From an uncultured Lachnospiraceae bacterium (lineage in GTDB: Bacteria; Bacillota; Clostridia; Lachnospirales; Lachnospiraceae): 38,289 nucleotides of DNA. The stretch lies in assembly GCA_902761665.1 (NCBI GenBank), contig CACWLA010000017.1, positions 1-38,289 of the forward strand, written 5' to 3'. Made by a program: the position numbers and the translations under genes. Shown in pieces: positions 24,284-38,171 of the stretch. Numbering within the stretch: the stretch's first letter is position 1; every line of letters begins with the position of its first letter. Below the pieces are notes generated by a model that was given only the letters and a program-made list of their open reading frames with translations, did not search any database and was not told the origin of the DNA.

Positions 24284-25465
24284 TTACAGGATCGGGATCT
24301 TGATCTCCAGATCGCTCAGCGGGAAAGCGGAGCAGGAATGGAACCAGCCCATCTCCTTATCCATCCGGCGGCGTCCGTCGCCTAGAGGCGAAACAAAGAT
24401 GTTCCCGCCCAGCAGCTGAGCCCGGCAGTAGCCGCACTCACCGCCGCGGCAGTGTGCATCGATGGGGATGCCGGCGCGTTCAAGCGACACGGCGACCGGT
24501 TCATCGGCCTTCGCGTCAATGACGTCCTTCTGAATGCCGCGGACGACCGTGATCTTATGCATCTGCCCGATCTGATCTTCGGGGAAACCCGGGATCTGCT
24601 TCACGTTCGCCGGCTGCATCATCGCTTCATGGCGGAAGCGGCGGTCCGGAACCCCCATGTTCTTCAGCGCTTTCTGCACCAGGAAGAACATCGGCCAGGG
24701 GCCGCAGAAGAAATAGGTCACGTCACCTTTCGAATACTTGCGGATAAGTTCCTCCGTGACGAAGCCTTTTTCACCTTCCCAGTCGGGATCGTCGGACATG
24801 ATATTCACGATCTTCACGCGCGGGCAGGCTGCCGCGATGCGGTCTAATTCCTCGCCGCATACGATGTCACCGTGCTGCACGGAGCCGTAAAGGATCGTCA
24901 GGTCAGCGTCCAGGGTGCCGTGGGCGATCTCACGGGCCATGGACAGGAACGGCGTGATGCCGCTGCCGCCCGCAAGGCCCATGATCGTCTTCGAATCGCG
25001 CACCGCATCCAGATGGAAGGCGGAGAACGGAAGGTCGACTCTGACCTCGTCGCCGACCTTTACTTCACTGTAAATGTAGTCCGGGACGAAATACGGTCGG
25101 TTCTTGCGCACCGTGATCTCGAAGAAAGGCTTCTCCAGCCTGGCTTCGTAAGGCGCGGAGGAAATCGAATAGGCGCGGGTGACCACGCTTTCGCCGATCT
25201 TGAAATAAAAGCAGGCATACTGTCCTGCCTGGAATACCGGGACGTGGCCGCCGACCGGTTCAAAGCGGAAGGTCTTCGCCGTCGGGCTCGCATCCGTTAC
25301 GGACACGAGACGGTAGCTTTCGGGACCGGGGTGCAGCGCATCCGCAAGTGCGCGGATGGGATCCTTCGGATCGGGGATACTGGAAGCCTTTTGAATCGTT
25401 TCCCGGCGCAGTTTCGTTACGCGCGAAGCCCCGCCGACGTCTTTTAGAAATCCTTTAACTTTCAT
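24284..25465 (-). CDS. FAD/NAD(P) reductase with C-terminal [2Fe-2S] ferredoxin domain
   Basis: A 393-residue electron-transfer protein with FAD domain, NAD(P) domain and plant-type ferredoxin domain in that order, as in Hcr- or phenol-hydroxylase-type reductases. After a ~50-residue N-terminal extension come RAYSISSAPYE (FAD/FMN binding, about residues 98-108), GLAGGSGITPFLSM (NAD(P) binding) and FFCGPWPMF. The cluster cysteines are Cys339, 344, 347 and 378 (CRGGECGYC ... HSC). The start overlaps the stop of the upstream flavoprotein as ATGA, and GGGAGG lies upstream. This tight coupling suggests it passes electrons from NAD(P)H through the iron-sulfur cluster to that flavoprotein. The acceptor is inferred from position only; no oxygenase is present in the window. 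Confidence 0.87.
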   Translation of the reverse strand: MKVKGFLKDVGGASRVTKLRRETIQKASSIPDPKDPIRALADALHPGPESYRLVSVTDASPTAKTFRFEPVGGHVPVFQAGQYACFYFKIGESVVTRAYSISSAPYEARLEKPFFEITVRKNRPYFVPDYIYSEVKVGDEVRVDLPFSAFHLDAVRDSKTIMGLAGGSGITPFLSMAREIAHGTLDADLTILYGSVQHGDIVCGEELDRIAAACPRVKIVNIMSDDPDWEGEKGFVTEELIRKYSKGDVTYFFCGPWPMFFLVQKALKNMGVPDRRFRHEAMMQPANVKQIPGFPEDQIGQMHKITVVRGIQKDVIDAKADEPVAVSLERAGIPIDAHCRGGECGYCRAQLLGGNIFVSPLGDGRRRMDKEMGWFHSCSAFPLSDLEIKIPIL

Positions 25466-27009
25466 TTCGTGCTTCCTCCCTTCGCTGCGTCCATGGCGGC
25501 CTTCGTATACTTGGCCGCGGCTCTGCCGTTCGTCACGGCAGGTCCCATGCCGTTGCCGCTCATGCCGGTCGCGCAGGCAAATTCAAGGCCTTCGATGAAG
25601 TGGTCTTCTTCGCGCATCTGGAGCCTGGCCACCGCATGGTTGTCGATCGAATGGGTATAGCCGTAGATGCTGCCCTTCCAGGAGCCCAGATAATGGGCGA
25701 TGGTCGCAGGCGTCGAGACTTCGATCTCTTCGATGCGGTCGTGGATCGTGACGCCGGAAACGCGTTCGTACTCAGCGATCATCTCACGTGCCAGCTTTTC
25801 CTTGTAGGCGTAATAATCCTCTTCCTTCATGTCCAGGAAGCCCTGTACGCGCGGCAGCGTCGTGATGGAGAACTGCGTATAGCCTTCCGGCGTGCATTCC
25901 GGATTGGACAGGTTCAGACAGATGCTGGTCAGATACTTGAACGGGCCTGCCGTCAGTCCCTCGGCGCGCAGGTCGGCCGATTCCATCGTATCCGCCTGGA
26001 AAATATTGTAATCCTTAATGCCGATCTCTTCCGGCGTTCCCTTCAGGATCATCATGACCGAGCAGGTCGTCACGGATAGTTTCATGCCGTTGATGAATTT
26101 TACGGCGCCTTCCGGCACTTCCGAAGCCGGTTCGATCATCTGGGTATAGACACGGTTCGGATAGGCAGCGCTGATGACGTAATCGCAGTTGATGACATCG
26201 CCGCGCTTAGTCCTGACGCCCGTTACTCTGCCGTTCTTCACCAGGATCTTTTCCACTTCCTGGCGGAATTCGATCTGGGCGCCGTTTTCTTCGGCTTTCC
26301 GCTCCAGCTTCATGCTCATCTCATGCGAGAAGCCGCGGCACACATAGGAACCGCCGCGGAAATAGTCGGCCATCAGGAAAGCATAGATCGTAAACGGAAG
26401 GTTGTCGATGGGTTCGCCGACATAGATCCAGTAAGGCGTAAGAACGTCCACGACGTCCTGCGGGAAGCCCCAGGTATCGATGACTTCCTTCGCGGTGTAA
26501 CCGGCAGTCTTGACGAAATCCGGATGCTTCAGCAGCATCTGTACCTTGCTCATGGAATGCGTGGAGAGGAAGTTCATCGAGTCATACACCGTGTTGCACA
26601 GCAGCATGAACTGATAGACCTTCTCGCCCCAGCCGGGATATTTGGCGCCGATTTCGTCCGCCATCGTGCGGAAGCCGGCGTGCAGCGTAATGTCGATGTT
26701 CTTCTTCGGTTCCACGAAGCGGTAGGCTTCGGGTACGCGCAGCCAGTCGATGTCCACGCCCATTTCGTCGAAGAACTGACCGACTTTCAGACGGTCTTCC
26801 TTCGGGCCGATCGACATCATCTCATGCAGCGTCGCTTCGATCTCGAAACCGTCGCGTACGAACGACGTCGCAAGGCCGCCTGGCAGGTTGTGCTTTTCGA
26901 GGATCAGGATGTCCTTCACGCCGAAGGCCTGCAGCTGCAGCGCCGCCGAAAGGCCGGCCAGCGCACCGCCGATGATGACCACCTGATAATGATCTTTGTA
27001 AAAGCTCAT
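25462..27009 (-). CDS. Phytoene desaturase/RetSat/CrtISO-family FAD oxidoreductase
   Basis: A 515-residue flavoprotein with an N-terminal dinucleotide-binding motif (VVIIGGALAGLSAALQL, about 9-25), ILEKHNLPGGLATSF and a C-terminal FAD motif (GMSGNGMGPAVTNGRAAA). The overall pattern is that of CrtI-type desaturases, carotenoid isomerases and retinol saturases, which add, remove or isomerise C=C bonds in long lipophilic chains. ATG 27009 is preceded by AAAGGAAC; an ATG five codons earlier contains that site and is rejected. It overlaps the FAD/[2Fe-2S] reductase gene by 4 bases and lies downstream of the fatty acid isomerase homologue beyond a leaky hairpin. There are no carotenoid genes nearby. 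I infer a fatty-acyl C=C reductase or isomerase role; the direction of the reaction is not shown. Confidence 0.82.
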   Translation of the reverse strand: MSFYKDHYQVVIIGGALAGLSAALQLQAFGVKDILILEKHNLPGGLATSFVRDGFEIEATLHEMMSIGPKEDRLKVGQFFDEMGVDIDWLRVPEAYRFVEPKKNIDITLHAGFRTMADEIGAKYPGWGEKVYQFMLLCNTVYDSMNFLSTHSMSKVQMLLKHPDFVKTAGYTAKEVIDTWGFPQDVVDVLTPYWIYVGEPIDNLPFTIYAFLMADYFRGGSYVCRGFSHEMSMKLERKAEENGAQIEFRQEVEKILVKNGRVTGVRTKRGDVINCDYVISAAYPNRVYTQMIEPASEVPEGAVKFINGMKLSVTTCSVMMILKGTPEEIGIKDYNIFQADTMESADLRAEGLTAGPFKYLTSICLNLSNPECTPEGYTQFSITTLPRVQGFLDMKEEDYYAYKEKLAREMIAEYERVSGVTIHDRIEEIEVSTPATIAHYLGSWKGSIYGYTHSIDNHAVARLQMREEDHFIEGLEFACATGMSGNGMGPAVTNGRAAAKYTKAAMDAAKGGSTK

Positions 27010-27075: not shown

Positions 27076-28461
27076 TTAGAAGAAGCGGTCGACCAGCTCG
27101 CGGGAGTATTCCGCGGTCTCGTCCATGTCACCGAAGGCCATGATCTCGCCGGCATAGTAGGTATCGTACTTGCCCTGCATGGCTTCGACCTTGTCATACC
27201 AGCCCGCGGCATAGTCTTCCGAGAAGACGTGCGGGAAGTAATAGACGCTCCATTCGTTGATGACGTTGGAGGCGGGGTTGTGCATGGTCTTCAGATCGTC
27301 CAGCACCATCTTCTTGCATTCGTCGTAAGGGATTTCCCTGGTATCTTTGTGTTTGCGCAGCGCATAGGTGGTGATGACCTGATCCTTGGTATCTCTCCAG
27401 CGGCGGTAATAGACCATCAGGTGGCCGAGGCGTTCCTTGGTCATGTTGTCGAAGACGTAGTAAGAGATCTCCGGATGATCTTCGGGCTTGGTCTCCACGG
27501 CCAGAACGTCGTAGCGCTCGTAGTCGATCTTGGAGAACAGGGCTTTTTCGTCTTCACGGGCATCGAAATAGTCGACCATGCCGACCTGGCCATCCGTGCG
27601 CTTGTTCGGGATGTACAGCGGTGCGGTCACGATGATCTTATCGTATTCTTCGACCTTGCCGTTCACGGTCACATAGACCTTGCCGTCCTTACGCTCGACC
27701 TTTTCGATCTTGGAATTCAGTCGGGCAGGATTTTTCAGTTTGTTGTTCAGGCTTTCCCAGATGAACTGGGTGCCGTCTTTCCAGGTCCACAGATTGATCT
27801 TCACGAAGTTCATGCAGGTCTGGAAATCCAGATATTTCAGCACGTACGCAGCCGGGATCTCATCGAAGTAGCCGTAGCCGAAGGAGGTGTACGGTCCGAT
27901 CCAGACGTCCTGGGTCAGTTCGACGCCGTTCAGTCTGCACCAATCCTTGAAGGGCATGGTCAGATCCTTCAGGTTCGGGTTCACGCCTTCCACTCTCTCG
28001 CGGCCGGGCGTGCAGGCATAGCCGTCATAGCGGCCTTCCGCAACGCCGCGGTGGCCGTTCAGGTCGTAGCCTTTATACTTGGTCTCCAGGATCTCGCCGA
28101 GCTTCTTGATCTGCTTCTTCATCTTCAGCAGTCGCGGGATCTTCAGGATGTTCTTCTTCGGTTCAAAGGGCTCGATCACGTCGCCCCTGCTGTTCTTGTA
28201 GTTGCGGTTCAGCTTCGGACCGTCATGCGTGATGCCGCAGAATTCTTCCACGTCATGCACGGCATAATAGCTGGGCACGCCCATGATGGCGCCCATCTCA
28301 TAGCGTCTGCCGTTGTAATGCGGAGACCAGCACTTGCCGCCCACACGGTCCAGACGTTCCAGGATGGTGTAGTTGGTGTAGCCCTTCTGCTCCAGATACA
28401 TACCCGCGGAAAGACCCGCAGGACCGCCGCCTACGATACAGATACGTACGTTCTTATCCAT
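27076..28461 (-). CDS. Polyunsaturated fatty acid isomerase (PAI) homologue
   Basis: A 461-residue FAD protein matching, along its whole length and from memory, the Cutibacterium acnes linoleate isomerase PAI, which turns linoleic acid into trans-10,cis-12 conjugated linoleic acid. Shared blocks include GPAGLSAGMYLEQ (13-25), ILERLDRVGGKC, RRYEMGAIMGVPSY (52-65), DEIPAAYVLKYLDF, DLKT and near the C terminus YYFPHVFSEDYAAGWYDKVE and YAGEIMAFGDMDE. Arg86 aligns with PAI Arg88, reported to hold the substrate carboxylate. An extra stretch of about 25 residues (around 140-165) is not in PAI. ATG 28461 follows GGAGG. The promoter carries a perfect palindrome. The likely role is cytosolic double-bond migration in host or dietary polyunsaturated fatty acids; product geometry is unknown. 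Confidence 0.85.
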   Translation of the reverse strand: MDKNVRICIVGGGPAGLSAGMYLEQKGYTNYTILERLDRVGGKCWSPHYNGRRYEMGAIMGVPSYYAVHDVEEFCGITHDGPKLNRNYKNSRGDVIEPFEPKKNILKIPRLLKMKKQIKKLGEILETKYKGYDLNGHRGVAEGRYDGYACTPGRERVEGVNPNLKDLTMPFKDWCRLNGVELTQDVWIGPYTSFGYGYFDEIPAAYVLKYLDFQTCMNFVKINLWTWKDGTQFIWESLNNKLKNPARLNSKIEKVERKDGKVYVTVNGKVEEYDKIIVTAPLYIPNKRTDGQVGMVDYFDAREDEKALFSKIDYERYDVLAVETKPEDHPEISYYVFDNMTKERLGHLMVYYRRWRDTKDQVITTYALRKHKDTREIPYDECKKMVLDDLKTMHNPASNVINEWSVYYFPHVFSEDYAAGWYDKVEAMQGKYDTYYAGEIMAFGDMDETAEYSRELVDRFF

Positions 28462-28647: not shown

Positions 28648-28899
28648 TCATTTTTTACCGGCAAGTTTGCGGTAAAGCCAGATGACAAGGCAGGCACCGG
28701 CAGCAGAGATCAGGATCCCGCCGATACTGATCTTATTGGCATGAATGCCGATCAGGGCAGCGAGGAAACGGCCGACTACGGAGCCCGCGATACCAAGGAT
28801 CGCATTCATCCAGAAACCGTTCTTGGCATTCATCAGGACGCTGGCCAGCCAGCCGGCCAGGGCGCCGATGCAGATCGAAATAATAATGTTCCAGAGCAT
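28648..28899 (-). CDS. GlsB/YeaQ/YmgE-family small membrane protein
   Basis: An 83-residue protein with three hydrophobic segments and the family's Gly-rich pattern: WNIIISICIGALAGWLAS, the loop NAKNGFWMNAILGIAGSVVGRFL, and ISIGGILISAAGACLVIWLY. It belongs to the transglycosylase-associated (YeaQ/YmgE/GlsB, PF04226) family, linked in Gram-positive bacteria with general or alkaline stress; the biochemical function is unknown. The ATG at 28899 follows AGGAGG 7 bases upstream, which rules out the longer frame to 28935. It is transcribed alone from a strong TTGACA-17-TAAAAT promoter and ends at its own terminator. The Asp23-like partner often found with GlsB is not in the window. Confidence 0.9.
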   Translation of the reverse strand: MLWNIIISICIGALAGWLASVLMNAKNGFWMNAILGIAGSVVGRFLAALIGIHANKISIGGILISAAGACLVIWLYRKLAGKK

Positions 28900-28978
28900 T
28901 TTGATTCCTCCTAAAACTGTGGATGACCGGAGCATTCCCTCAGGTCTTCGCGTCTGAGATCACTGTTTTAACTGCTTA

Positions 28979-29007
28979 ATTTTATAACTTTCGTGTATTT
29001 TTGTCAA
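28979..29007 (-). promoter_or_regulatory. Strong promoter of the glsB-type gene
   Basis: On the minus strand, a perfect -35 TTGACA (29002-29007), 17 bases and -10 TAAAAT (28979-28984). The leader to the ATG at 28899 is about 72 bases. Confidence 0.85.
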
Positions 29008-29058
29008 TCATGTACAGAACGGTCCCGTCAAGCCTTCTTGGAACTGCTGAAGAGAATG

Positions 29059-29784
29059 TTACTGAACGTGAATATGCTCGGAACAGCTCTGGAAAAGCTT
29101 GTCCATCTCATCATTATCAGCCGTATAGGTGATCGTCACGGACCGTCCGTCCATGAACAGCGTGCAGGATGTCTGCTTTAACACGACTCCCTGCTGCACA
29201 AAATCGGCAGTGTAATGGGCGATGACAAGTTTTCCGCCCTGGATCTCATTGCTGGTGTACGTAAAGTCTTTGACTTCCGCTCCGTAGCTTGATGCATAAG
29301 AGTTCGTGATGGCATTCTTAAATGCTTCTTCCGTGTAGTCTTCGTATTTGTCGTTCGCTGTGATCAGCGTGATATTGCTGCCCTGCGTTTCTCCGGCAGG
29401 GATCAGCGAAAGCGGATACGAATTTTCCTTCTCAGTATAATTTTCGGGGATCCAGCATACGACTCCGTCAAAAACGTATTCCTTCAGGCCTTTCGAAGGC
29501 TGATCGGCAGCTTCTTCCGTTGTCGGTTCTGCCGTCGTCGGTGCTTCAGTGGTCGGTTCTGCCGTCGTCGGCGCTTCGGTGGTCGGTTCCGCCGTCGTCG
29601 GCGCTTCGGTGGTTTCTGCTGCCGAAGTTTCCGGTTTCGTTGCCTCAGTTGACTTTTGGGTCGCTTCCGCGGTCTGTGTTTCCGTCGGCGTTGCATTGCC
29701 TCCACAGGCCGAAAGGAGCGTGACCGCAAGAAGAGCCGCGAGGATCATTGCCGGTATTCTGGGTTTCATTTTCATGGTATTCAT
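29059..29784 (-). CDS. Lipoprotein with Thr/Glu/Pro repeat linker
   Basis: A 241-residue exported lipoprotein. The N terminus has basic residues, a hydrophobic core and the lipobox LLSAC, placing the lipidated Cys at residue 27 from the first ATG. A low-complexity linker follows, rich in Thr, Glu, Ala and Pro, containing three copies of a ten-residue unit (TTEAPTTAEP), which probably spans the cell wall and may be O-glycosylated. The C-terminal ~140 residues (from KGLKEYVFDGVVCWIPENY) form a soluble domain of the PsbP/DUF1795-like appearance common in clostridial lipoproteins, without a known activity. Either ATG (29784 or 29775) is possible; AGGAG lies 3 and 12 bases upstream of them respectively. 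It is divergent from the AMP-ligase gene. Confidence 0.85.
   Translation of the reverse strand: MNTMKMKPRIPAMILAALLAVTLLSACGGNATPTETQTAEATQKSTEATKPETSAAETTEAPTTAEPTTEAPTTAEPTTEAPTTAEPTTEEAADQPSKGLKEYVFDGVVCWIPENYTEKENSYPLSLIPAGETQGSNITLITANDKYEDYTEEAFKNAITNSYASSYGAEVKDFTYTSNEIQGGKLVIAHYTADFVQQGVVLKQTSCTLFMDGRSVTITYTADNDEMDKLFQSCSEHIHVQ
29523..29612. repeat. Three 30-bp tandem repeats inside the lipoprotein gene
   Basis: Units at 29523-29552, 29553-29582 and 29583-29612 differ at only a few bases and encode the Thr/Glu/Ala/Pro unit. Such in-frame repeats can expand or contract by slippage without breaking the gene. Confidence 0.9.
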
Positions 29785-29969: not shown

Positions 29970-31328
29970 ATGCGCTTCAACGATTTTGACGATCTGCTGA
30001 AAAACAACGCTGAAACGCTGCCGGATCATACCGCGCTGCGCTTCGGCGAAAAACGCTGGACCTACAGGGAACTTTACGAAGCGGTCTGTGCAGAAGCGGA
30101 GGCATACAAAGCCACCGGCAAGACCTGTCTCGGCATTCTTGCGGACGGCAGCGCTGACTGCGTGATCGCACTCTTCGGCGCGGCGAAGGCCGGCCTGCAG
30201 CTGGTCTTACTGGATGCATCGCTTCCGGATGAGGCCTATCCCATGCTCCTTGCCTATACGGATGCAGACATCCTCTGGGGGGATGAAGAACTGTGCGGGG
30301 AACTGACGCCTCATCTTTCCGGCGGCGTACAAAACGGTGCAGGAAAAGTGCTCTTCTTTACCTCCGGAACCACGAGCCGTTCCAAAGCCGTGGAACTGAC
30401 GCAGCATTCCCTCTGCCAGAGCGCCTGGAACGGCAGCAGCCTCCTGCCGCTGTCCGAAGATGACACGCTTCTTTGCCTCCTGCCTCTTGGACACGTCTTC
30501 GGTTTTGTCTGCGGACTCCTCTGGGGACTGTCCTGCGGCGCCGCTGTCGCGCTCGGACGGGGGCCTCGCCACTATGCAGACGACTGCCTGTACTACCGCC
30601 CGACTGCTATCTCAGTCGTCCCTCTCCTTCTCGGTTTTCTGCTGAAATCCCGGGCTCTGGATCCTGAACTGAAGCTGATCCTGATCGGAGCAGGCGACTG
30701 TCCGGCACCAATCCTGAAAGCCGCAAAAATGACCGGCGCGCGCGTCTCTTTCGGATACGGCCTGACAGAAACAAGTTCCGGTGTCGCGCTTAGCCTCGGA
30801 GACGATCCTTATGCCATGACGGTCTGCCCGGACGACATCGTCAGTATTGCCGAAGACGGCGAGATCCTGATCCGTGTTCCGACTTGCGTCATGCAGGGCT
30901 ATTACAAGCGTCCCGATGAAACGGCAGCCGTACTGAAGGACGGGGTCTTATTCACCGGCGACCTCGGCCGCTTTGACGAAAACGGCCTGCTGCACGTCAC
31001 CGGCCGGAAAAAAGACATTCTTGTCCTTTCCGACGGCACGAAACTCTATCTTCCTGAATACGAGGGGCAGCTCGCCGCTGCTCTGGGAAATGCGGAACTT
31101 GCCGTGGTGCTGAAAAACGGACGTCCCATCCTCATCATTCAGGATACCGGCGGGGACGCGGATCCTGCCGCCCGAAGAGCCGCCATTCTGAACGCTCTCG
31201 CCCCGCTCATGAAGACACTGCCGCGCGGCCAGCAGATCACGGACGTCGTCTTCTCTGCATCGCCGCTTCCCCGCACCGCGACGGGAAAGATCAAGCGTTA
31301 TGAACTGGGAACGGTCACCGAAGCGTAA
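29970..31328 (+). CDS. AMP-forming acyl ligase, probable acyl-ACP synthetase
   Basis: A 452-residue member of the ANL superfamily (PF00501), slightly shorter than typical acyl-CoA ligases. It has the adenylate motif FFTSGTTSRSKAVELT (129-144), GYGLTETSSG (aromatic A5 motif, about 259-268), the hinge TGDLGRFDENGLLHVTGRKKD and the C-terminal catalytic lysine in TATGKIKRYELG (about 440). ATG 29970 is preceded by AAGGAGG. The next two genes encode an acyl carrier protein and an acyl-ACP thioesterase in the same direction, so the natural product is an acyl-ACP rather than an acyl-CoA. The acid substrate could be a fatty, aryl or short-chain acid. It lies 1.5 kb from the PAI homologue, on the other strand. 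Confidence 0.85.
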   Translation: MRFNDFDDLLKNNAETLPDHTALRFGEKRWTYRELYEAVCAEAEAYKATGKTCLGILADGSADCVIALFGAAKAGLQLVLLDASLPDEAYPMLLAYTDADILWGDEELCGELTPHLSGGVQNGAGKVLFFTSGTTSRSKAVELTQHSLCQSAWNGSSLLPLSEDDTLLCLLPLGHVFGFVCGLLWGLSCGAAVALGRGPRHYADDCLYYRPTAISVVPLLLGFLLKSRALDPELKLILIGAGDCPAPILKAAKMTGARVSFGYGLTETSSGVALSLGDDPYAMTVCPDDIVSIAEDGEILIRVPTCVMQGYYKRPDETAAVLKDGVLFTGDLGRFDENGLLHVTGRKKDILVLSDGTKLYLPEYEGQLAAALGNAELAVVLKNGRPILIIQDTGGDADPAARRAAILNALAPLMKTLPRGQQITDVVFSASPLPRTATGKIKRYELGTVTEA

Positions 31329-31384: not shown

Positions 31385-31636
31385 ATGGAACGCACCGAGA
31401 TCATCGAAAAGATCAAAACCACCATTTCCGACTGCTTCCCCGACATGGACACGAAATCTCTCGAGGAAAGCTCCGTCATCAACACGGAGACCTCTATCGA
31501 CTCCATGGGATTCGTGCTGATCATCTGCAAGCTGGAAGCACTCTTTGACATCCGTATTCCGGAACGCCAGTGGCAGAAGCTCTCTACGCTCGGCGACGTG
31601 GCCGACGCCATTGAAAAGAGGCTGCCGAAGGCATGA
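31385..31636 (+). CDS. Acyl carrier protein
   Basis: An 83-residue acidic four-helix carrier protein. The phosphopantetheine site is Ser40 in TSIDSMGFVLI, a DSM variant of the usual DSL. The C-terminal half (PERQWQKLSTLGDVADAIEKR) is typical of ACPs used outside core fatty acid synthesis. The ATG at 31385 follows AAAGGAAAC. It begins 56 bases after the AMP-ligase and its stop overlaps the thioesterase start as ATGA. It presumably carries the acyl group loaded by the ligase. No phosphopantetheinyl transferase or ketosynthase is in the window. Confidence 0.9.
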   Translation: MERTEIIEKIKTTISDCFPDMDTKSLEESSVINTETSIDSMGFVLIICKLEALFDIRIPERQWQKLSTLGDVADAIEKRLPKA

Positions 31637-32364
31637 GCGGCATCTACGAAAAAGCCTACCATCTAAAGAGTTCGGACGTGAACCGCTGGCAGCGGCTCCG
31701 CACGAGCGTGATGATGCGCTGGCTGCAGGAAGCCGCCATCGCTCACACGGAAGAGCTCGGCATGGGCCGGGAAAAAACGCTGGACAGGGGACTTCTCTGG
31801 ATCGTAAGCCTGCAGCGCACCGAGATTCTGCGCCTTCCGATCTACGATGAAAAGATCATCGTGCGCAGTTGGCCGGGGAAGACCATGCACGTTTTCTTCC
31901 CCCGTTACTACGAGCTTGTCACGGAAGACGGCGAACCGCTGGTCCGTGCTTCTGCCCTCTGGATGCTTCTCGATGAAAAGACCCGCCGCTTCGTGTTTCC
32001 GGAAGCTTACGGCATCGTGATCAACGGCGTCGTGACCGGCAGTGAGACCGCGCTCCCCGCTTCGCCGAAATCCCTGCCTTTCACGGCGGAAAAGCCTTTT
32101 TCCGTTCCCTTCAGTTATGTGGACCTGAACGGTCACATGAACAACACGCGCTACTACGATCTGGCAGACGATCTGCTGCCTTTCGAGAAAGAAGGACAGC
32201 GCCTGAAAGCGCTCGCTGCGGAATACCTGCATGAGATCCGCGAGGGGCGGGACATCCGTCTGCGCTGGGGTTTGAACGAAAACAGCTCCGCCGCATTTCT
32301 TGCCGGCGAAGCCGATGTCCCTTTGTTCCGTCTCAGGCTCGAATACGAGCCGGCAGGATCATGA
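31633..32364 (+). CDS. Acyl-ACP thioesterase (FatA/FatB-like)
   Basis: A 243-residue double hot-dog thioesterase (PF01643) that hydrolyses acyl-ACP to free acid. The first hot-dog begins with VMMRWLQEAAIAHTEELG and LLWIVSLQRTEIL; the second holds the conserved YVDLNGHMNNTRYYD with Asn166 and His168 of the active site. Length and layout match bacterial FatA-like enzymes. Translation is coupled to the ACP gene by the ATGA overlap. With the ligase and ACP it makes a self-contained load-carry-release set with no elongation enzymes, which is odd unless the acyl-ACP is modified by another protein. Its stop codon overlaps the convergent azlD gene end by 6 bases. Confidence 0.88.
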   Translation: MSGIYEKAYHLKSSDVNRWQRLRTSVMMRWLQEAAIAHTEELGMGREKTLDRGLLWIVSLQRTEILRLPIYDEKIIVRSWPGKTMHVFFPRYYELVTEDGEPLVRASALWMLLDEKTRRFVFPEAYGIVINGVVTGSETALPASPKSLPFTAEKPFSVPFSYVDLNGHMNNTRYYDLADDLLPFEKEGQRLKALAAEYLHEIREGRDIRLRWGLNENSSAAFLAGEADVPLFRLRLEYEPAGS

Positions 32365-33399: not shown

Positions 33400-33744
33400 T
33401 TACTCCGCTTCGATCTCCTTGATGATGCATTCGTTGCCCTGCAGCAGCCAGGTCTCGCCGGAGCCGCAGTGCGGGCAGGTCTTGCCGTATTTCACGGTTT
33501 CATAAGTTTTCTTGCAGTTATCGCACCAGGTGACCGCCGGAATGGTTTCGAGCACGAGCTCGCATTCCGTCAGCATCGGGTGTTTTTTCTTGAAATAGTC
33601 CCAGGCGTCGGTAAAAAGGTCGGTCATGATCCCGGAGACTTCGCCGACCTGCAGGGTCACGCGGCCGATCTTCGTCAGCTGATTCTGCTCGGCTGTTTCA
33701 TCCAGCGTTTTCGCCATATGCAGGACGATCCCCATTTCGTGCAT
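33400..33744 (-). CDS. hypA: Hydrogenase/urease nickel metallochaperone HypA
   Basis: A 114-residue nickel chaperone that delivers Ni2+ during maturation of [NiFe] hydrogenase, and in some bacteria urease. It begins MHEMGIV, with the essential His2 of the nickel site. The structural zinc site is Cys74, Cys77 (WCDNC), Cys90 and Cys93 (CPHC). It starts a single base after the second hypB stop codon, so the genes are coupled. HypC, D, E and F and any nickel enzyme are absent from the window, so the client lies elsewhere. Confidence 0.94.
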   Translation of the reverse strand: MHEMGIVLHMAKTLDETAEQNQLTKIGRVTLQVGEVSGIMTDLFTDAWDYFKKKHPMLTECELVLETIPAVTWCDNCKKTYETVKYGKTCPHCGSGETWLLQGNECIIKEIEAE

Positions 33745-33745
33745 G

Positions 33746-34420
33746 TTATGCCTCCTTCCGTGTGCCAGCCTGCCAGGCAGCCAGTTTCCTGCGCAGCCAT
33801 TCTTCCAGCTCAGCCATTCCTTCGCCGGTCTTCGCCGATACCGGGAAGACGTGAATGTCCGGGTTCAGTTTCTTTGCCCGCGCCGCACAGAGATCCGTAT
33901 CAAAGCGGAAATACGGCAGCGCGTCGGTCTTGGTGATCACGAGCGCATGGCTCTTTGCAAACATCAGCGGATACTTGAGCGGCTTGTCGTCGCCTTCCGG
34001 CACCGACAGGATCATCATGTCAAGGCCTGCACCGGTATCGTATTCCGCAGGGCAGATCAGATTGCCCACATTCTCAAGGAAAATGAGCTGCGCACCGTCT
34101 TCTTCGAGGGCTTCGAGGGATGCTCTCGTCATGCCGGCGTCCATGTGGCACATCCCGTCCGTATGGACCTGGATCGCCTGCGCGCCGAGCGCTTCGATCC
34201 TTTCCGCGTCCACCGCTGATTCGATGTCTGCCTCCATGACGGCGATCTTCACTTCCGGCATGTCTTTGATAAGACGCGACAGCAATGTCGTCTTGCCGGA
34301 GCCGGGAGAGCTCATGAGGTTGACCATCAGCTGTCCCTTTGCACTCAGTTCTTCCCGAAGCAGCGCCGCGTCACGGTCGTTCGAGGCCGTCACCGATGCA
34401 CCGACGTTAATGATCTTCAT
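33746..34420 (-). CDS. hypB: Hydrogenase maturation GTPase HypB, second copy
   Basis: A 224-residue SIMIBI-class GTPase acting with HypA in nickel insertion. It has the P-loop SSPGSGKT (37-44), the dimer-interface metal site Cys91-His92 in DGMCHMDAGM, FLENVGNLICP and the specificity motif ITKTD. It lacks the N-terminal high-affinity CxxCGC nickel motif and His-rich stretch of some HypB proteins. The start overlaps the stop of the first copy as ATGA, and AAAGGAGAGG precedes it. It is paralogous to the upstream gene, with strongly conserved central segments. Confidence 0.93.
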   Translation of the reverse strand: MKIINVGASVTASNDRDAALLREELSAKGQLMVNLMSSPGSGKTTLLSRLIKDMPEVKIAVMEADIESAVDAERIEALGAQAIQVHTDGMCHMDAGMTRASLEALEEDGAQLIFLENVGNLICPAEYDTGAGLDMMILSVPEGDDKPLKYPLMFAKSHALVITKTDALPYFRFDTDLCAARAKKLNPDIHVFPVSAKTGEGMAELEEWLRRKLAAWQAGTRKEA

Positions 34421-35091
34421 CGCTCCCCTCTCCTTTCCCGGACGAAACTCCGCAGATACTTCGCCAGTTCGTCAAAGCCTTCTCCTGTTTCCGCACTGAC
34501 CGGGAAGACGGCCAGGCGCGGGTTCAGGGCGCAGGCGCGTTCGCAGGCGGCAGCAAGGTTGAAATCAAAGATTGGCGCCGTATCGATCTTATTCACGATC
34601 ATCACGTCGCTGACCGTGAACATCAGCGGATACTTCAGCGGCTTGTCGTCGCCTTCCGGCACTGACAGGATCATCATCCGGAGATCGGCGCCGATCTCAA
34701 ATTCCGCAGGGCAGACGAGATTGCCAATGTTCTCCAGGAAGATGAGGTCAAGCCCTTCCGTTCCCATGGCTTCGAGCCCGCGCCTGGTCATGTCTGCATC
34801 CATGTGGCAGAGCCCCGCAGTATGGAGCTGGATCACGCGCACGCCGGCCTCTCCGACGGTCCTTGCATCCACGTCAGAGTCCACATCAGCCTCCATGACA
34901 CCGATGCGGAACTCGTCCTTCAGGCGGCTGATCAGCTGCAGCAGGGTCGACGTCTTTCCGGCTCCGGGCGACCCCATGAGGTTGACAAGGACCGCGCCCT
35001 GTCCGCGCATTTTTTCTCTGTTCCGCGCTGCAGCGGCTTCGTTATCCGCCAGCACGGCCTCCTTTGTTTCCACGATGCGAATGGGATCCAT
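34417..35091 (-). CDS. hypB: Hydrogenase maturation GTPase HypB, first copy
   Basis: A 224-residue HypB paralogue at the head of the operon. It has P-loop GSPGAGKT (40-47), Cys95-His96 in AGLCHMDADM, FLENIGNLVCP, SVPEGDDKPLKYPLMF and the NKID specificity motif. The ATG at 35091 follows GCGGAGG. Both copies keep all recognisable GTPase and metal residues, so neither looks decayed. They may form a heterodimer, or serve different nickel enzymes; this is inference. The first copy is somewhat more divergent at the N and C termini. Confidence 0.92.
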   Translation of the reverse strand: MDPIRIVETKEAVLADNEAAAARNREKMRGQGAVLVNLMGSPGAGKTSTLLQLISRLKDEFRIGVMEADVDSDVDARTVGEAGVRVIQLHTAGLCHMDADMTRRGLEAMGTEGLDLIFLENIGNLVCPAEFEIGADLRMMILSVPEGDDKPLKYPLMFTVSDVMIVNKIDTAPIFDFNLAAACERACALNPRLAVFPVSAETGEGFDELAKYLRSFVRERRGER

Positions 35092-35132: not shown

Positions 35133-35232
35133 CGTTCCGGCACGCCGCGCCACAGGAAAATGAAGGCTCATTCCTCAAGCGGAAAACCTTCCGGCGAACG
35201 TGCGAAAATCCCCCCGGGGAGGTTGAAAACGC

Positions 35233-35261
35233 TTGCAATTCACGTCTTCGTACGCTATAGT
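35233..35261 (+). promoter_or_regulatory. Promoter of the large flavoprotein gene
   Basis: On the plus strand, -35 TTGCAA (35233-35238), 17 bases and -10 TATAGT (35256-35261). The leader is about 87 bases. Confidence 0.75.
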
Positions 35262-35277
35262 ATTTTGAGGTGTGTGT

Positions 35278-35317
35278 CCGGAAAATGCAAGGCTGTTCCT
35301 AAGCCCTGTTTTTCCGG
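35278..35317 (+). other. Structured leader hairpin
   Basis: In the 5' leader, CCGGAAAA (35278-35285) can pair with TTTTTCCGG (35309-35317), and within the loop GGCT (35291-35294) pairs with AGCC (35302-35305). The U run is inside the stem, so it is not an ordinary terminator. It could be a regulatory or stabilising element; no known riboswitch class is recognised. Confidence 0.4.
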
Positions 35318-35354
35318 CAAAAGCAGAATCTATCATTATGCCAAGGACGAAAAC

Positions 35355-38171
35355 ATGGTAAAAGAAGTGAATCCGATGATCCACGTCAATGAACGGGATT
35401 ATCCTGTGAACGGCCATCACTGCGACGACCCTGAGAAGGCGAAGCTGGTCAAGAAACTGGCTCTCCTGATCACCGACAACATCCCCCGCAAGCTCCCCGG
35501 CGGCATGAAGGAAAACCACATGGATTTCTGGATCCTGGACCGCCTGCTGACCAAGGAAGAAGTCATCTTCATGCTCAGCTTCAAGAAGCGCCGCTTCGGT
35601 CTGACCACGAAGGAACTGGCCGAACGCAACAACATGAGCGTGGAAGAAGCCCAGAAGATCATTGACCACCTGATCTGGATCGGCATCCTGGAGCAGAACC
35701 GTGACAACGCGGACCAGCACATCCAGTACTGGATCCCGAAGTGGGTCGTCGGCTCCGGAGAATACATGGTGGAGCACAAGACGCTGTGCGAGACCAATCC
35801 CGAAGTCGCCACCATGTTCAACCTTGCTCCGCAGGAACCGCTTGAACTGGCTGCAAAACTCGTGCCTCTGGGAGGCGCCGGCATCGGCATGCACGTCATC
35901 CCCGTGGAAAAGGCCATCGACGCCGCCTCCACGAGCGTCAGCGTGGAACATCTCTCCCACTGGCTTCAGAAATACGATAAGTTCTGCACCATGGTCTGTG
36001 CCTGCCGCAAGGCCCAACGCGTGCGCGGCGAAGGTGTCGGCGACATCGAAGGCCACATGTGCATCGGCCTCGGCGACATCGCTGAATTCCTGGTCGAGAC
36101 CGGCAAGGACGCGAAGTACGTGACCCGTGAAGAGGTCATCGAGATCCTCGAACGCGCCGAGCGCAAGGGCTACGTCCACCAGATCACCAACCTCGACGGT
36201 CCGAACCGCATCGTCGGCATCTGCAACTGCTCACCGGGGAGCTGCTACGGCCTCCGTACCTCCCAGCTCTTCAATACCCCGAACATGTCCCGCTCCGCCT
36301 ACCGAGCCCACGTTGAAGCTGAAAAGTGCGTCGCCTGCGGCAAATGCGTTGAAGTCTGCCCTGCCGGCGCCGCAAGGCTCGGCCAGAAGCTCTGCCGCGC
36401 AGACGGAAGCAAGGTAACTTATCCTTACCACGACCTTCCGGACGATCACGTTTGGGGCGAAAAGAGGTGGAACCGCAATTACCGCGATACCAATAAGCTG
36501 AACTGCTACGATACCGGCACATCGCCGTGCAAGACGGCCTGCCCGGCGCACATCGCCGTCCAGGGCTACGTCAAGATGGCTTCCGAAGGCCGCTATGCCG
36601 AAGCCGTGAAGCTCATCCGTCAGGACAACCCCTTCCCGGCCGTCTGCGGCGCCGTCTGCAACCGCCGCTGCGAAGACCGCTGCACCCGCGGGACCATCGA
36701 CAATCCCGTCGCCATCGACGAGATCAAGAAGTTCCTGGCGCAGTGGGAACTGGAGAATCCCCAGGACTACACCGTGATGTGCGAAAACGGTGAGGGGAAG
36801 CAGTGGGACGATTACAAGATCGCCGTCATCGGTGCCGGCCCCGCCGGTCTTTCCGCTGCCTACTATCTCCGCACCGAAGGCTATCCTGTCACCGTATTCG
36901 AAAAAGAATCGCGACCGGGCGGCATGCTCCTAAACGGCATCCCGAATTTCCGTCTGGAAAAGGACGTCCTGGAAAAAGAGATCGGCATCATCGAAAAGAT
37001 GGGCGCCGAGATCCGCTGCGGCGTCGAAGTCGGTAAGGATATCAGCCTTGACGAACTCCGCGCGCAGGGCTACAAGGCCTTCTACATCGCCATCGGTCTG
37101 CAGGGCGGCCGCCTTGCGGGCGTGCCCGGTGAAGATGCTGAGGGCGTCGAAAGCGGCGTTGCTTTCCTGAAGCGCGTGAACCAGGCCGGCGAAGGCCATT
37201 TCGACGGCGATGTGGTCGTGGTCGGCGGCGGCAACGTTGCAGCTGACGTAGCACGGGCAGCTCTCCGCTGCACGAAGGGCAAGGTCACCATGCTCTGCCT
37301 GGAGCAGCGTCACGAAATGCCTGCCGCGAAGGATGAAGTTGCGGAATGCGAAGAAGAAGGCATTGAGGTCAAAAACGGCTGGGGTCCGAAGAAAGTCCTG
37401 ACTGAAAACGGCAGGGTCACCGGCATCGTCTTCAAGCGCTGCACCAGCGTCTTCGACGAGAACCACCGCTTCTCCCCCAAATATGACGAGAACGATACCA
37501 TCACGATCCCCTGCGGCAACGTCCTCATGGCGATCGGCCAGTCCGCCGAATGGGGCGGCCTGCTGGACGGCGCGAAGGTCGAACGGCGTCCGAACGGCTC
37601 CGTGATCGCCGATCCGGTCACCCTTCAGACCGCTGAGCCGGATATCTTCCTGGGCGGCGACATCTACCACGGCGCACGCTTCGCCATCGACGCGATCGCG
37701 GAAGGCAAGCAGGCGATGGTCTCCATCAACCGCTTCGTCCATCCCGGCCAGTCCATGACGATCGGCCGCGACCTCAGGGAATTCATCGAATTCAACCGCG
37801 ATGACATCACCCGTCCGGACGGCTTCGACAATGCCGAGCGCCAGCGTCCGGGTTCGAAGCCCGGTACGGCCCGCGAGACCTTTAAGGATCTTCGCCTGCC
37901 GCTTACCGAAGAACAGGTAAAGATCGAAGCGAAGCGCTGCCTTGGCTGCGGCGCGACCACGGTCGACATCAACCAGTGCATCGGCTGCGGCCTCTGCACC
38001 ACGCGCTGCCAGTTCGACGCGATCCACCTGACCCGCGACCTCCCGGCGGCCTCCGACATGCACACCGCCGAGGAAATGATGAAGCTGGTCGGACCTTATG
38101 CCTTAAAGCGCATGGGTAAGATCATCAAGCGCGCCGTTACCGGCAAGTCGGATTATCCGACCCATTCGTGA
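35355..38171 (+). CDS. Winged-helix/Fe-S/GltD-type flavin oxidoreductase
   Basis: A 938-residue multidomain redox protein. In order: a winged-helix-like segment (about 85-120, LTTKELAERNNMSVEEAQKII); a Cys-rich part (about 210-295, with CTMVCACRK and ICNCSPGSC); a [4Fe-4S] motif CVACGKCVEVCP (about 324-335); the GltD N-terminal domain with CKTACPAHIAVQGYV and CNRRCEDRC; an FAD motif VIGAGPAGLSAAYYL (about 490); an NAD(P) motif VVGGGNVAADVA (about 620); and C-terminal CLGCG plus CIGCGLCTTRC. The FAD part resembles the glutamate synthase small subunit, which passes NADPH electrons to a partner. Start ATG 35355 has AAGGA upstream; no coding signal exists further upstream across the promoter. No GltB is nearby, so the electron partner is unknown. 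It is a single-gene unit. Confidence 0.85.
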   Translation: MVKEVNPMIHVNERDYPVNGHHCDDPEKAKLVKKLALLITDNIPRKLPGGMKENHMDFWILDRLLTKEEVIFMLSFKKRRFGLTTKELAERNNMSVEEAQKIIDHLIWIGILEQNRDNADQHIQYWIPKWVVGSGEYMVEHKTLCETNPEVATMFNLAPQEPLELAAKLVPLGGAGIGMHVIPVEKAIDAASTSVSVEHLSHWLQKYDKFCTMVCACRKAQRVRGEGVGDIEGHMCIGLGDIAEFLVETGKDAKYVTREEVIEILERAERKGYVHQITNLDGPNRIVGICNCSPGSCYGLRTSQLFNTPNMSRSAYRAHVEAEKCVACGKCVEVCPAGAARLGQKLCRADGSKVTYPYHDLPDDHVWGEKRWNRNYRDTNKLNCYDTGTSPCKTACPAHIAVQGYVKMASEGRYAEAVKLIRQDNPFPAVCGAVCNRRCEDRCTRGTIDNPVAIDEIKKFLAQWELENPQDYTVMCENGEGKQWDDYKIAVIGAGPAGLSAAYYLRTEGYPVTVFEKESRPGGMLLNGIPNFRLEKDVLEKEIGIIEKMGAEIRCGVEVGKDISLDELRAQGYKAFYIAIGLQGGRLAGVPGEDAEGVESGVAFLKRVNQAGEGHFDGDVVVVGGGNVAADVARAALRCTKGKVTMLCLEQRHEMPAAKDEVAECEEEGIEVKNGWGPKKVLTENGRVTGIVFKRCTSVFDENHRFSPKYDENDTITIPCGNVLMAIGQSAEWGGLLDGAKVERRPNGSVIADPVTLQTAEPDIFLGGDIYHGARFAIDAIAEGKQAMVSINRFVHPGQSMTIGRDLREFIEFNRDDITRPDGFDNAERQRPGSKPGTARETFKDLRLPLTEEQVKIEAKRCLGCGATTVDINQCIGCGLCTTRCQFDAIHLTRDLPAASDMHTAEEMMKLVGPYALKRMGKIIKRAVTGKSDYPTHS

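Follow-up and report, generated by a model that had tools for sequence, protein, structure and literature searches.

The 38,289-nucleotide contig CACWLA010000017.1 of an uncultured Lachnospiraceae bacterium (assembly GCA_902761665.1), here called the window, encodes a 461-amino-acid homologue of polyunsaturated fatty acid isomerase (PAI, positions 27076..28461), followed on the same minus strand by a CrtI-fold FAD protein of 515 amino acids and 57.6 kDa (RETS, 25462..27009) and by a 393-amino-acid NAD(P)H-FAD-[2Fe-2S] reductase (FE2S, 24284..25465). These genes form a conserved operon, and a second, divergent operon for an acyl ligase (LIG), an acyl carrier protein (ACP) and an acyl-ACP thioesterase (TE) travels with it. 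We propose that the cluster probably conjugates and then hydrogenates polyunsaturated fatty acids, PAI acting first and RETS, a putative conjugated-diene reductase, acting second on electrons from FE2S, its proposed donor, with LIG-ACP-TE loading and releasing the chain. The established part of this proposal consists of gene content, motifs, linkage, co-occurrence and predicted fold. An earlier note, made from the letters of the window, had placed RETS and FE2S correctly in coordinates, strand and 4-base overlap (the stop/start ATGA at 25462..25465, minus strand) and had read them as a two-component enzyme reducing the diene made by the isomerase. Conserved PAI-RETS-FE2S linkage, a single clade of PAI-linked RETS and ruminant labels favour that reading, but the note missed the ligase-ACP-thioesterase operon.

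The conservation of the operon is apparent when a six-row RETS alignment is scanned against named genomes of bacteria and archaea. Of the related stretches, which number at least 538, the 80 best were analysed, the window's proteins being placed by tblastn on each of these loci. FE2S lies directly behind RETS in 79 of them, the exception (L095) being a locus whose contig ends 88 bases on, and PAI lies directly ahead of RETS in 68, so that the genome survey suggested in the earlier note finds the arrangement conserved. Among the named loci, the closest RETS, 99% identical, comes from a Lachnospiraceae metagenome-assembled genome. Families named in the titles are Oscillospiraceae (31 loci), Lachnospiraceae (15), Anaerovoracaceae (4), Eubacteriaceae (2), Clostridiaceae (2) and Erysipelotrichaceae (1), with none in 25. 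By title, 63 of the 80 are from the ruminant gut (a ruminant host is given in 27, and another 36 bear the label RUG, which we take to mean rumen uncultured genome) and 17 show neither; this is a raw count, not set against the proportion of ruminant genomes in the collection. On this evidence the system is real, conserved and, by label, mostly ruminant-associated, and the proposal of the earlier note is well backed by genomics.

Some loci depart from this pattern in detail. The tblastn match to PAI is fragmented in L063, L107 and L109, and that to FE2S in L059, suggesting frameshifts, decay or assembly errors; an in-frame stop in the RETS of genome G425 (L154) likewise suggests a frameshift, decay or an assembly error. 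In L051, L053, L059 and L070 the place of PAI is taken by a DUF5692 gene (one member scanned), and genes resembling the D-component of 2-hydroxyglutaryl-CoA dehydratase are found nearby.

PAI aligns at both ends with 2b9w, the solved PAI chain of Propionibacterium (Cutibacterium) acnes, the two sharing 224 of 416 aligned positions (54% identity, E 3.9e-137). Residues R86, F194 and F219 of the window protein correspond to R88, F168 and F193 of the P. acnes enzyme, which we take to be its carboxylate clamp and lid, and the equivalents are kept in 65, 66 and 66, respectively, of the 66 homologues of at least 430 amino acids (73 in the cluster). The description of the upstream gene as a fatty acid isomerase homologue is thereby borne out. 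If the regiochemistry of the homologue is kept, the window's PAI would isomerise linoleate to trans-10,cis-12-conjugated linoleic acid (CLA), the reported product of P. acnes PAI (PMC12254105, PMC2885616); P. acnes is recorded as forming trans-10,cis-12-CLA together with about 10% trans-10-octadecenoic acid (Verhulst 1987, as cited in PMC2885616).

RETS starts at the ATG at 27009, with GAAAGGA ahead of it, and matches the domains Amino_oxidase, DAO and NAD_binding_8, with a dinucleotide fold at the N-terminus. Its top NCBIfam model is the carotenoid isomerase TIGR02730, at 106.9 bits against a curated cut-off of 586.9, and the CrtI family TIGR02734 scores 105.2 bits, also under its cut-off (238.1). 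An AlphaFold2 model built from a 39-row alignment (predicted local distance difference test, pLDDT, 89.5; predicted template modelling score, pTM, 0.88) has gamma-carotenoid desaturase 4rep as its closest fold in the PDB (TM-scores 0.79/0.83, 17% identity), the next matches being nicotine oxidoreductase and CrtI 4dgk (TM 0.56/0.69). The model supports a flavoprotein able to handle long unsaturated chains, the fold alone naming no substrate. The placement of RETS in the RetSat/CrtI family by the earlier note thus holds for best models and fold, which are CrtI-like, but not at the level of the curated cut-offs; the family models and folds listed as matches include no RetSat model or chain, though no search was aimed at RetSat. 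A tblastn search of plasmids gave distant matches only, in 22 records for RETS and 3 for PAI (best place 28% in each case).

We also considered RETS as a carotenoid enzyme, a role rejected on the sub-cut-off scores together with a genome that has no match to PF00494 (phytoene/squalene synthase), where the control was positive in 7 of 14 genomes. This agrees with the claim that no carotenoid gene is present; because the window's genome is 94% complete, neither this absence nor that of PF06100 (below) is proof.

The second protein, FE2S, contains FAD_binding_6, NAD_binding_1 and C-terminal Fer2 domains, each above cut-off, and the four cysteines of its [2Fe-2S] cluster are conserved in all 99 homologues of at least 370 amino acids (101 in the cluster), as expected of the NAD(P)H-FAD-[2Fe-2S] protein it had been taken for. 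Its nearest models are BenC- and PaaE-type reductases, and it falls below every curated cut-off listed.

The divergent operon lies on the plus strand, 1.5 kb from PAI. LIG (29970..31328), an AMP-forming acyl ligase of 452 amino acids, starts at the ATG at 29970 with AAGGAGG upstream, matches PF00501 (scored on a longer open reading frame, ORF, starting at 29748) and has a conserved C-terminal lysine. ACP (31385..31636), an 83-amino-acid acyl/peptidyl carrier protein, matches PF00550 with 21.8 bits, barely above the cut-off of 20.8, and Ser40, its phosphopantetheine serine, is conserved in 40 of 40 sequences. TE (31633..32364), which overlaps ACP by 4 bases, is an acyl-ACP thioesterase of 243 amino acids that matches PF01643 (73.5 bits, cut-off 23.7) and, also above cut-off, PF20791; its closest PDB entries are 2own and 2ess, and residues N166, G167, H168 and N171, an NxHxxN-type motif that we assume marks acyl-ACP thioesterases, are conserved in at least 97% of 56 sequences. 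ORF clustering of 104 loci plus the window (105 sequences) identifies these same genes as the commonest neighbours besides PAI, RETS and FE2S, the ligase being found in 61 loci, the thioesterase in 56 and a protein of 83-84 amino acids in 40; the next gene cluster beyond this block reaches 24 of the 105 sequences, and the flanks are otherwise poorly conserved. Of the 80 loci, 51 carry PAI together with 5 kb or more of upstream sequence, and in 47 of these LIG, ACP and TE are all present and divergent from PAI. The trio is absent nearby in the other four (L047, with merely 5.3 kb upstream, L088, L096 and L116), and in the genome of L088 it sits on another contig. Two small genes separate the divergent operons of the window (28648-29784), one for a small membrane-type protein of 95 amino acids and one for a putative lipoprotein of 241 amino acids with a TTEAPTTAEP-type repeat; elsewhere, unlike in the window, the ligase mostly adjoins PAI directly (most rows of the ORF clustering).

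Co-occurrence at the level of whole genomes was assessed by searching a single draw of 150 genomes from the family to which the window belongs, the window's own genome (G000) included, with RETS, PAI, LIG and TE. RETS is found above 450 bits in five genomes (G000, G130, G109, G043 and G075), while matches at E<=0.001 occur in 83, nearly all short or weak; an FE2S relative also adjoins RETS in G048 (203 bits) and G113 (175 bits). PAI occurs in six genomes (G000, G130, G043, G109, G069 and G081), four of which, own genome included, also carry RETS. Excluding the own genome, 3 genomes are shared between 4 RETS carriers and 5 PAI carriers in 149 (p = 7e-5). LIG is detected at E<=1e-30 in 12 of the 150 genomes, its top three foreign matches being the other PAI+RETS genomes G130, G109 and G043 (411, 355 and 294 bits; next 229), and neither the PAI-only genomes G069 and G081 nor the RETS-only genome G075 is among the 12. 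TE homologues are widespread (112 of 150), and the top three foreign matches are again G109, G130 and G043 (181, 154 and 105 bits; next 100). In G130, PAI-RETS-FE2S is on contig C30 and LIG, ACP and TE follow in order on C33, ahead of a homologue of the window's NADFER gene (see below); because the two gene sets sit on separate contigs, the co-occurrence is more than physical linkage. A wider draw at class level (391 genomes including the own) contains RETS (E<=1e-40) in 16, three at more than 50% identity and the others at 31-38%, and PAI in two, each time beside RETS.

A RETS tree of 39 rows, from a quick search and with several outer rows on long branches, places all 19 PAI-neighboured RETS in a single clade of 26 rows (SH-like approximate likelihood ratio test, SH-aLRT, 100; stem 1.29), and none of the 13 rows outside it has a PAI neighbour. 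One of the 19, L151, is counted on a mere 109-amino-acid PAI piece (L151:8455-8784) ahead of RETS in G191, a genome in which the class search gave no PAI at E<=1e-40. RETS-FE2S pairs away from the isomerase, which the earlier note had named as telling against its proposal, do occur, mostly in distant clades and also in some rows of the same clade, while the PAI-linked rows form one clade.

Pairs in other settings include RETS-FE2S, or RETS with an FAD-binding oxidoreductase, beside TetR-like or GntR/FCD regulators (L156, L159, L160, L161, L111, L154, L155 and L168), the TetR_N match beside outer pairs being under the Pfam cut-off. On a plasmid of Ligilactobacillus acidipiscis a RETS-FE2S-type pair adjoins an annotated TetR gene. 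These regulator-linked pairs would represent a wider two-component flavoprotein family, to which we assign no substrates. Tandem RETS-FE2S pairs, or two RETS genes flanking one FE2S, are also seen (L111:1451-7024, L157 and L158).

From these observations we infer enzyme activities, substrate, regiochemistry, electron path, order of steps and role of ACP as follows. Acting on a methylene-interrupted fatty acid (linoleic or linolenic acid being the likeliest), PAI would move one of the double bonds so that a conjugated diene results. RETS would then add two electrons and two protons to the diene, yielding a trans monoene; it may protonate the diene while reduced FAD gives a hydride, the reverse of the hydride abstraction that we presume to be the chemistry of PAI, and thus open to the same fold. 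Judging by its domains, FE2S would receive hydride on its FAD from NAD(P)H, and its [2Fe-2S] cluster would relay the electrons one at a time to the RETS FAD. LIG would load the free fatty acid on the dedicated ACP and TE would free the product. If the P. acnes regiochemistry holds, the route would run from linoleate via trans-10,cis-12-CLA to trans-10-18:1, the 'trans-10' pathway of the rumen. Because the divergent operon would load and release the chain, at least one step probably takes place on acyl-ACP, and this would most likely be the RETS step, since the arginine presumed to bind a free carboxylate is retained in PAI. No ketosynthase is among the conserved neighbours identified; the combination of ligase, ACP and thioesterase therefore best fits editing of a chain on ACP. 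In its strongest form, with a six-gene system in which RETS reduces an ACP-held chain, this would be the first gene-level definition of trans-10 biohydrogenation in the rumen, a claim that we advance tentatively and hold at somewhat below even chances.

Several observations weigh against this proposal. One is that the substrate class of RETS cannot be read from family membership, because its scores are far under the carotenoid-model cut-offs. PAI is not seen ahead of RETS in 12 of the 80 closest loci, five of them (L051, L053, L058, L059 and L123) with at least 5 kb upstream and the other seven with 176-1513 bases; when seven of these genomes were searched whole (L051, L053, L058, L059, L070, L111 and L123), two had PAI elsewhere and five showed none, so the RETS-FE2S pair can exist without PAI. 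Seven rows of the 26-row clade are also without PAI: L038 and L039, which branch together at the clade base; L111, with 1.5 kb upstream and a GntR gene where PAI would be; L123, PAI-less across 8 kb of upstream sequence; and L066, L072 and L077, each on a contig that breaks off 176-853 bases upstream of RETS. In the 150-genome draw G069 and G081 carry PAI but no RETS, and G075 carries RETS but no PAI; one RETS of G075 (L038) has no FE2S within 19.5 kb, and the weak RETS relatives L042-L045 (45-105 bits) likewise lack FE2S. An in-frame stop interrupts the LIG match of G043, the margin between the third TE match and the fourth is narrow, and the ruminant share is a raw count. Finally, a ligase/thioesterase cycle would consume ATP.

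The likeliest alternative overlaps with our own proposal, in that RETS may be an orthologue of the known CLA reductase (CLA-R) of Butyrivibrio; we regard this as a serious minority possibility, which would alter the novelty of the system and not its mechanism. CLA-R is described as reducing conjugated dienes directly, as NADH-linked and membrane-associated, and as having had its gene sequence reported in 2007 (PMC4478896, PMC2654759), but Butyrivibrio is described with a membrane-bound isomerase making cis-9,trans-11-CLA (PMC12254105), as opposed to the soluble PAI.

Somewhat unlikely, in our view, is that LIG-ACP-TE is a separate module for fatty acid salvage or release in the same bacteria and that PAI and RETS use free acids only. 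Such a separation would fit the retention of the Arg88 equivalent of PAI, which presumably binds the carboxylate, in 65 of 66 homologues, and the four testable loci without the trio nearby (one of which, L088, has it on another contig); it fits less well with the 47 of 51 loci in which the trio diverges from PAI, or with a trio that tracks PAI+RETS, and not either alone, in the 150-genome draw.

We consider it improbable that RETS-FE2S serves to reduce an isoprenoid from the diet or another conjugated lipid (carotenoid, phytol or retinoid), with PAI as an unrelated detoxification gene alongside. The fold and nearest family models of RETS are those of carotenoid enzymes, and pairs in other clades lack PAI and in some cases stand beside GntR or TetR-like regulators, but PAI is the usual neighbour in the 80 closest loci and fatty-acyl enzymes (ligase, ACP and acyl-ACP thioesterase) co-occur. 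That RETS works oxidatively, as a desaturase or dehydrogenase like its CrtI relatives (4rep and 4dgk among the fold matches), is very unlikely given that FE2S resembles the NAD(P)H-oxidising oxygenase reductases BenC and PaaE and that the upstream polyunsaturated fatty acid isomerase and a presumably anaerobic gut habitat would point to an electron sink.

Further along the window lie genes whose membership in the cluster is less certain. NADFER (35160..38171, plus strand) encodes a GltD-like NAD(P)H/FAD protein of 1003 amino acids with 4Fe-4S domains, and HypA (33400..33744) and two copies of HypB (33746..34420 and 34417..35091), all on the minus strand, are recurrent, inconstant neighbours of uncertain membership. 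Of the 47 loci whose flanks extend 5 kb either way, 14 have a NADFER homologue, and in G130 (L195) one lies directly behind LIG-ACP-TE. All three recur near RETS or PAI, including PAI without RETS (L166, L167) and RETS without a full PAI (L038, L151). NADFER may be a further electron-supply part, and its membership is possible, not constant.

Should the proposal prove true, genes would be assigned to a rumen step that shapes the fat of milk and meat. PAI-RETS-FE2S with LIG-ACP-TE would also offer a compact syntenic marker, pointing, within the Clostridia (Lachnospiraceae, Oscillospiraceae and others), to candidate bacteria and enzymes, and would allow an isomerase-reductase route to be tested directly at the enzyme level; one paper calls knowledge of the species behind such pathways limited. 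The earlier note had claimed that the pairing was undescribed, and our literature search, with most subscription papers outside its coverage, found no report of the operon or of a CrtI-type CLA reductase. That note drew its comparison with lactobacilli only, whereas Butyrivibrio of the rumen is known to reduce conjugated dienes directly with NADH, with a gene sequence published in 2007 (PMC4478896, PMC2654759), so the reaction itself would not be new. The novelty of RETS-FE2S is provisional, since RETS may belong to the CLA-R family.

Among known systems, CLA-R of Butyrivibrio fibrisolvens (Hunter 1976, Hughes 1982 and Fukuda 2007, as cited in PMC4478896 and PMC2654759) resembles RETS in the proposed reaction, in which a rumen anaerobe uses NADH to saturate one of the conjugated double bonds of a diene. 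In Butyrivibrio, NADH and rumenate are consumed 1:1 in the direct reduction (Hunter 1976, as cited in PMC4478896), purified CLA-R accepts both 18:2 and 18:3 conjugated acids for reduction (PMC2654759), and in 2015 the enzyme was absent from KEGG, COG and Pfam and so could not be searched for (PMC4478896). It differs in acting on cis-9,trans-11-CLA, and the available text of these sources mentions no PAI or reductase partner gene.

The Lactobacillus route, with the enzymes CLA-HY, CLA-DH, CLA-DC and CLA-ER according to the available text (PMC13365329), also saturates conjugated acids derived from linoleate, as proposed for the window, but uses an oleate hydratase. A hydratase/enone-reductase route of this type was considered for the window and is unlikely, because its genome has no match to oleate hydratase PF06100 (control positive in 4 of 14 genomes, above cut-off in 1); in this the earlier note, which had proposed a route unlike that of lactobacilli, agrees with the genome.

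Taken singly, the parts also have recognisable relatives. PAI shares with the P. acnes enzyme (2b9w series, 'putative aminooxidase' in the PDB) its FAD fold as well as the sequence identity and R88/F168/F193 equivalents given above, but has a net gain of about 22 residues around 139-164 and stands in an operon with a reductase pair, a setting not mentioned for P. acnes in the source text available. For RETS, the CrtI/carotenoid isomerase family (TIGR02730, TIGR02734, 4rep, 4dgk) provides the best models and best fold match, set against sub-cut-off scores, low identity to 4rep and a genome without a phytoene synthase match. FE2S has the same three domain types as BenC/PaaE-type reductases, with the cluster domain at the C-terminus, but its neighbour is a CrtI-fold protein and not an oxygenase, and it has about 50 residues ahead of the FAD domain. 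For the arrangement as a whole, a parallel is found in systems of the JamA/JamB/JamC type, which consist of an acyl ligase, an acyl-ACP desaturase and an ACP: in both, a ligase and a dedicated ACP are set beside a redox enzyme that edits, or in the window would edit, an acyl chain, the difference being that the Jam enzymes desaturate, whereas the window is proposed to reduce, with a thioesterase for release.

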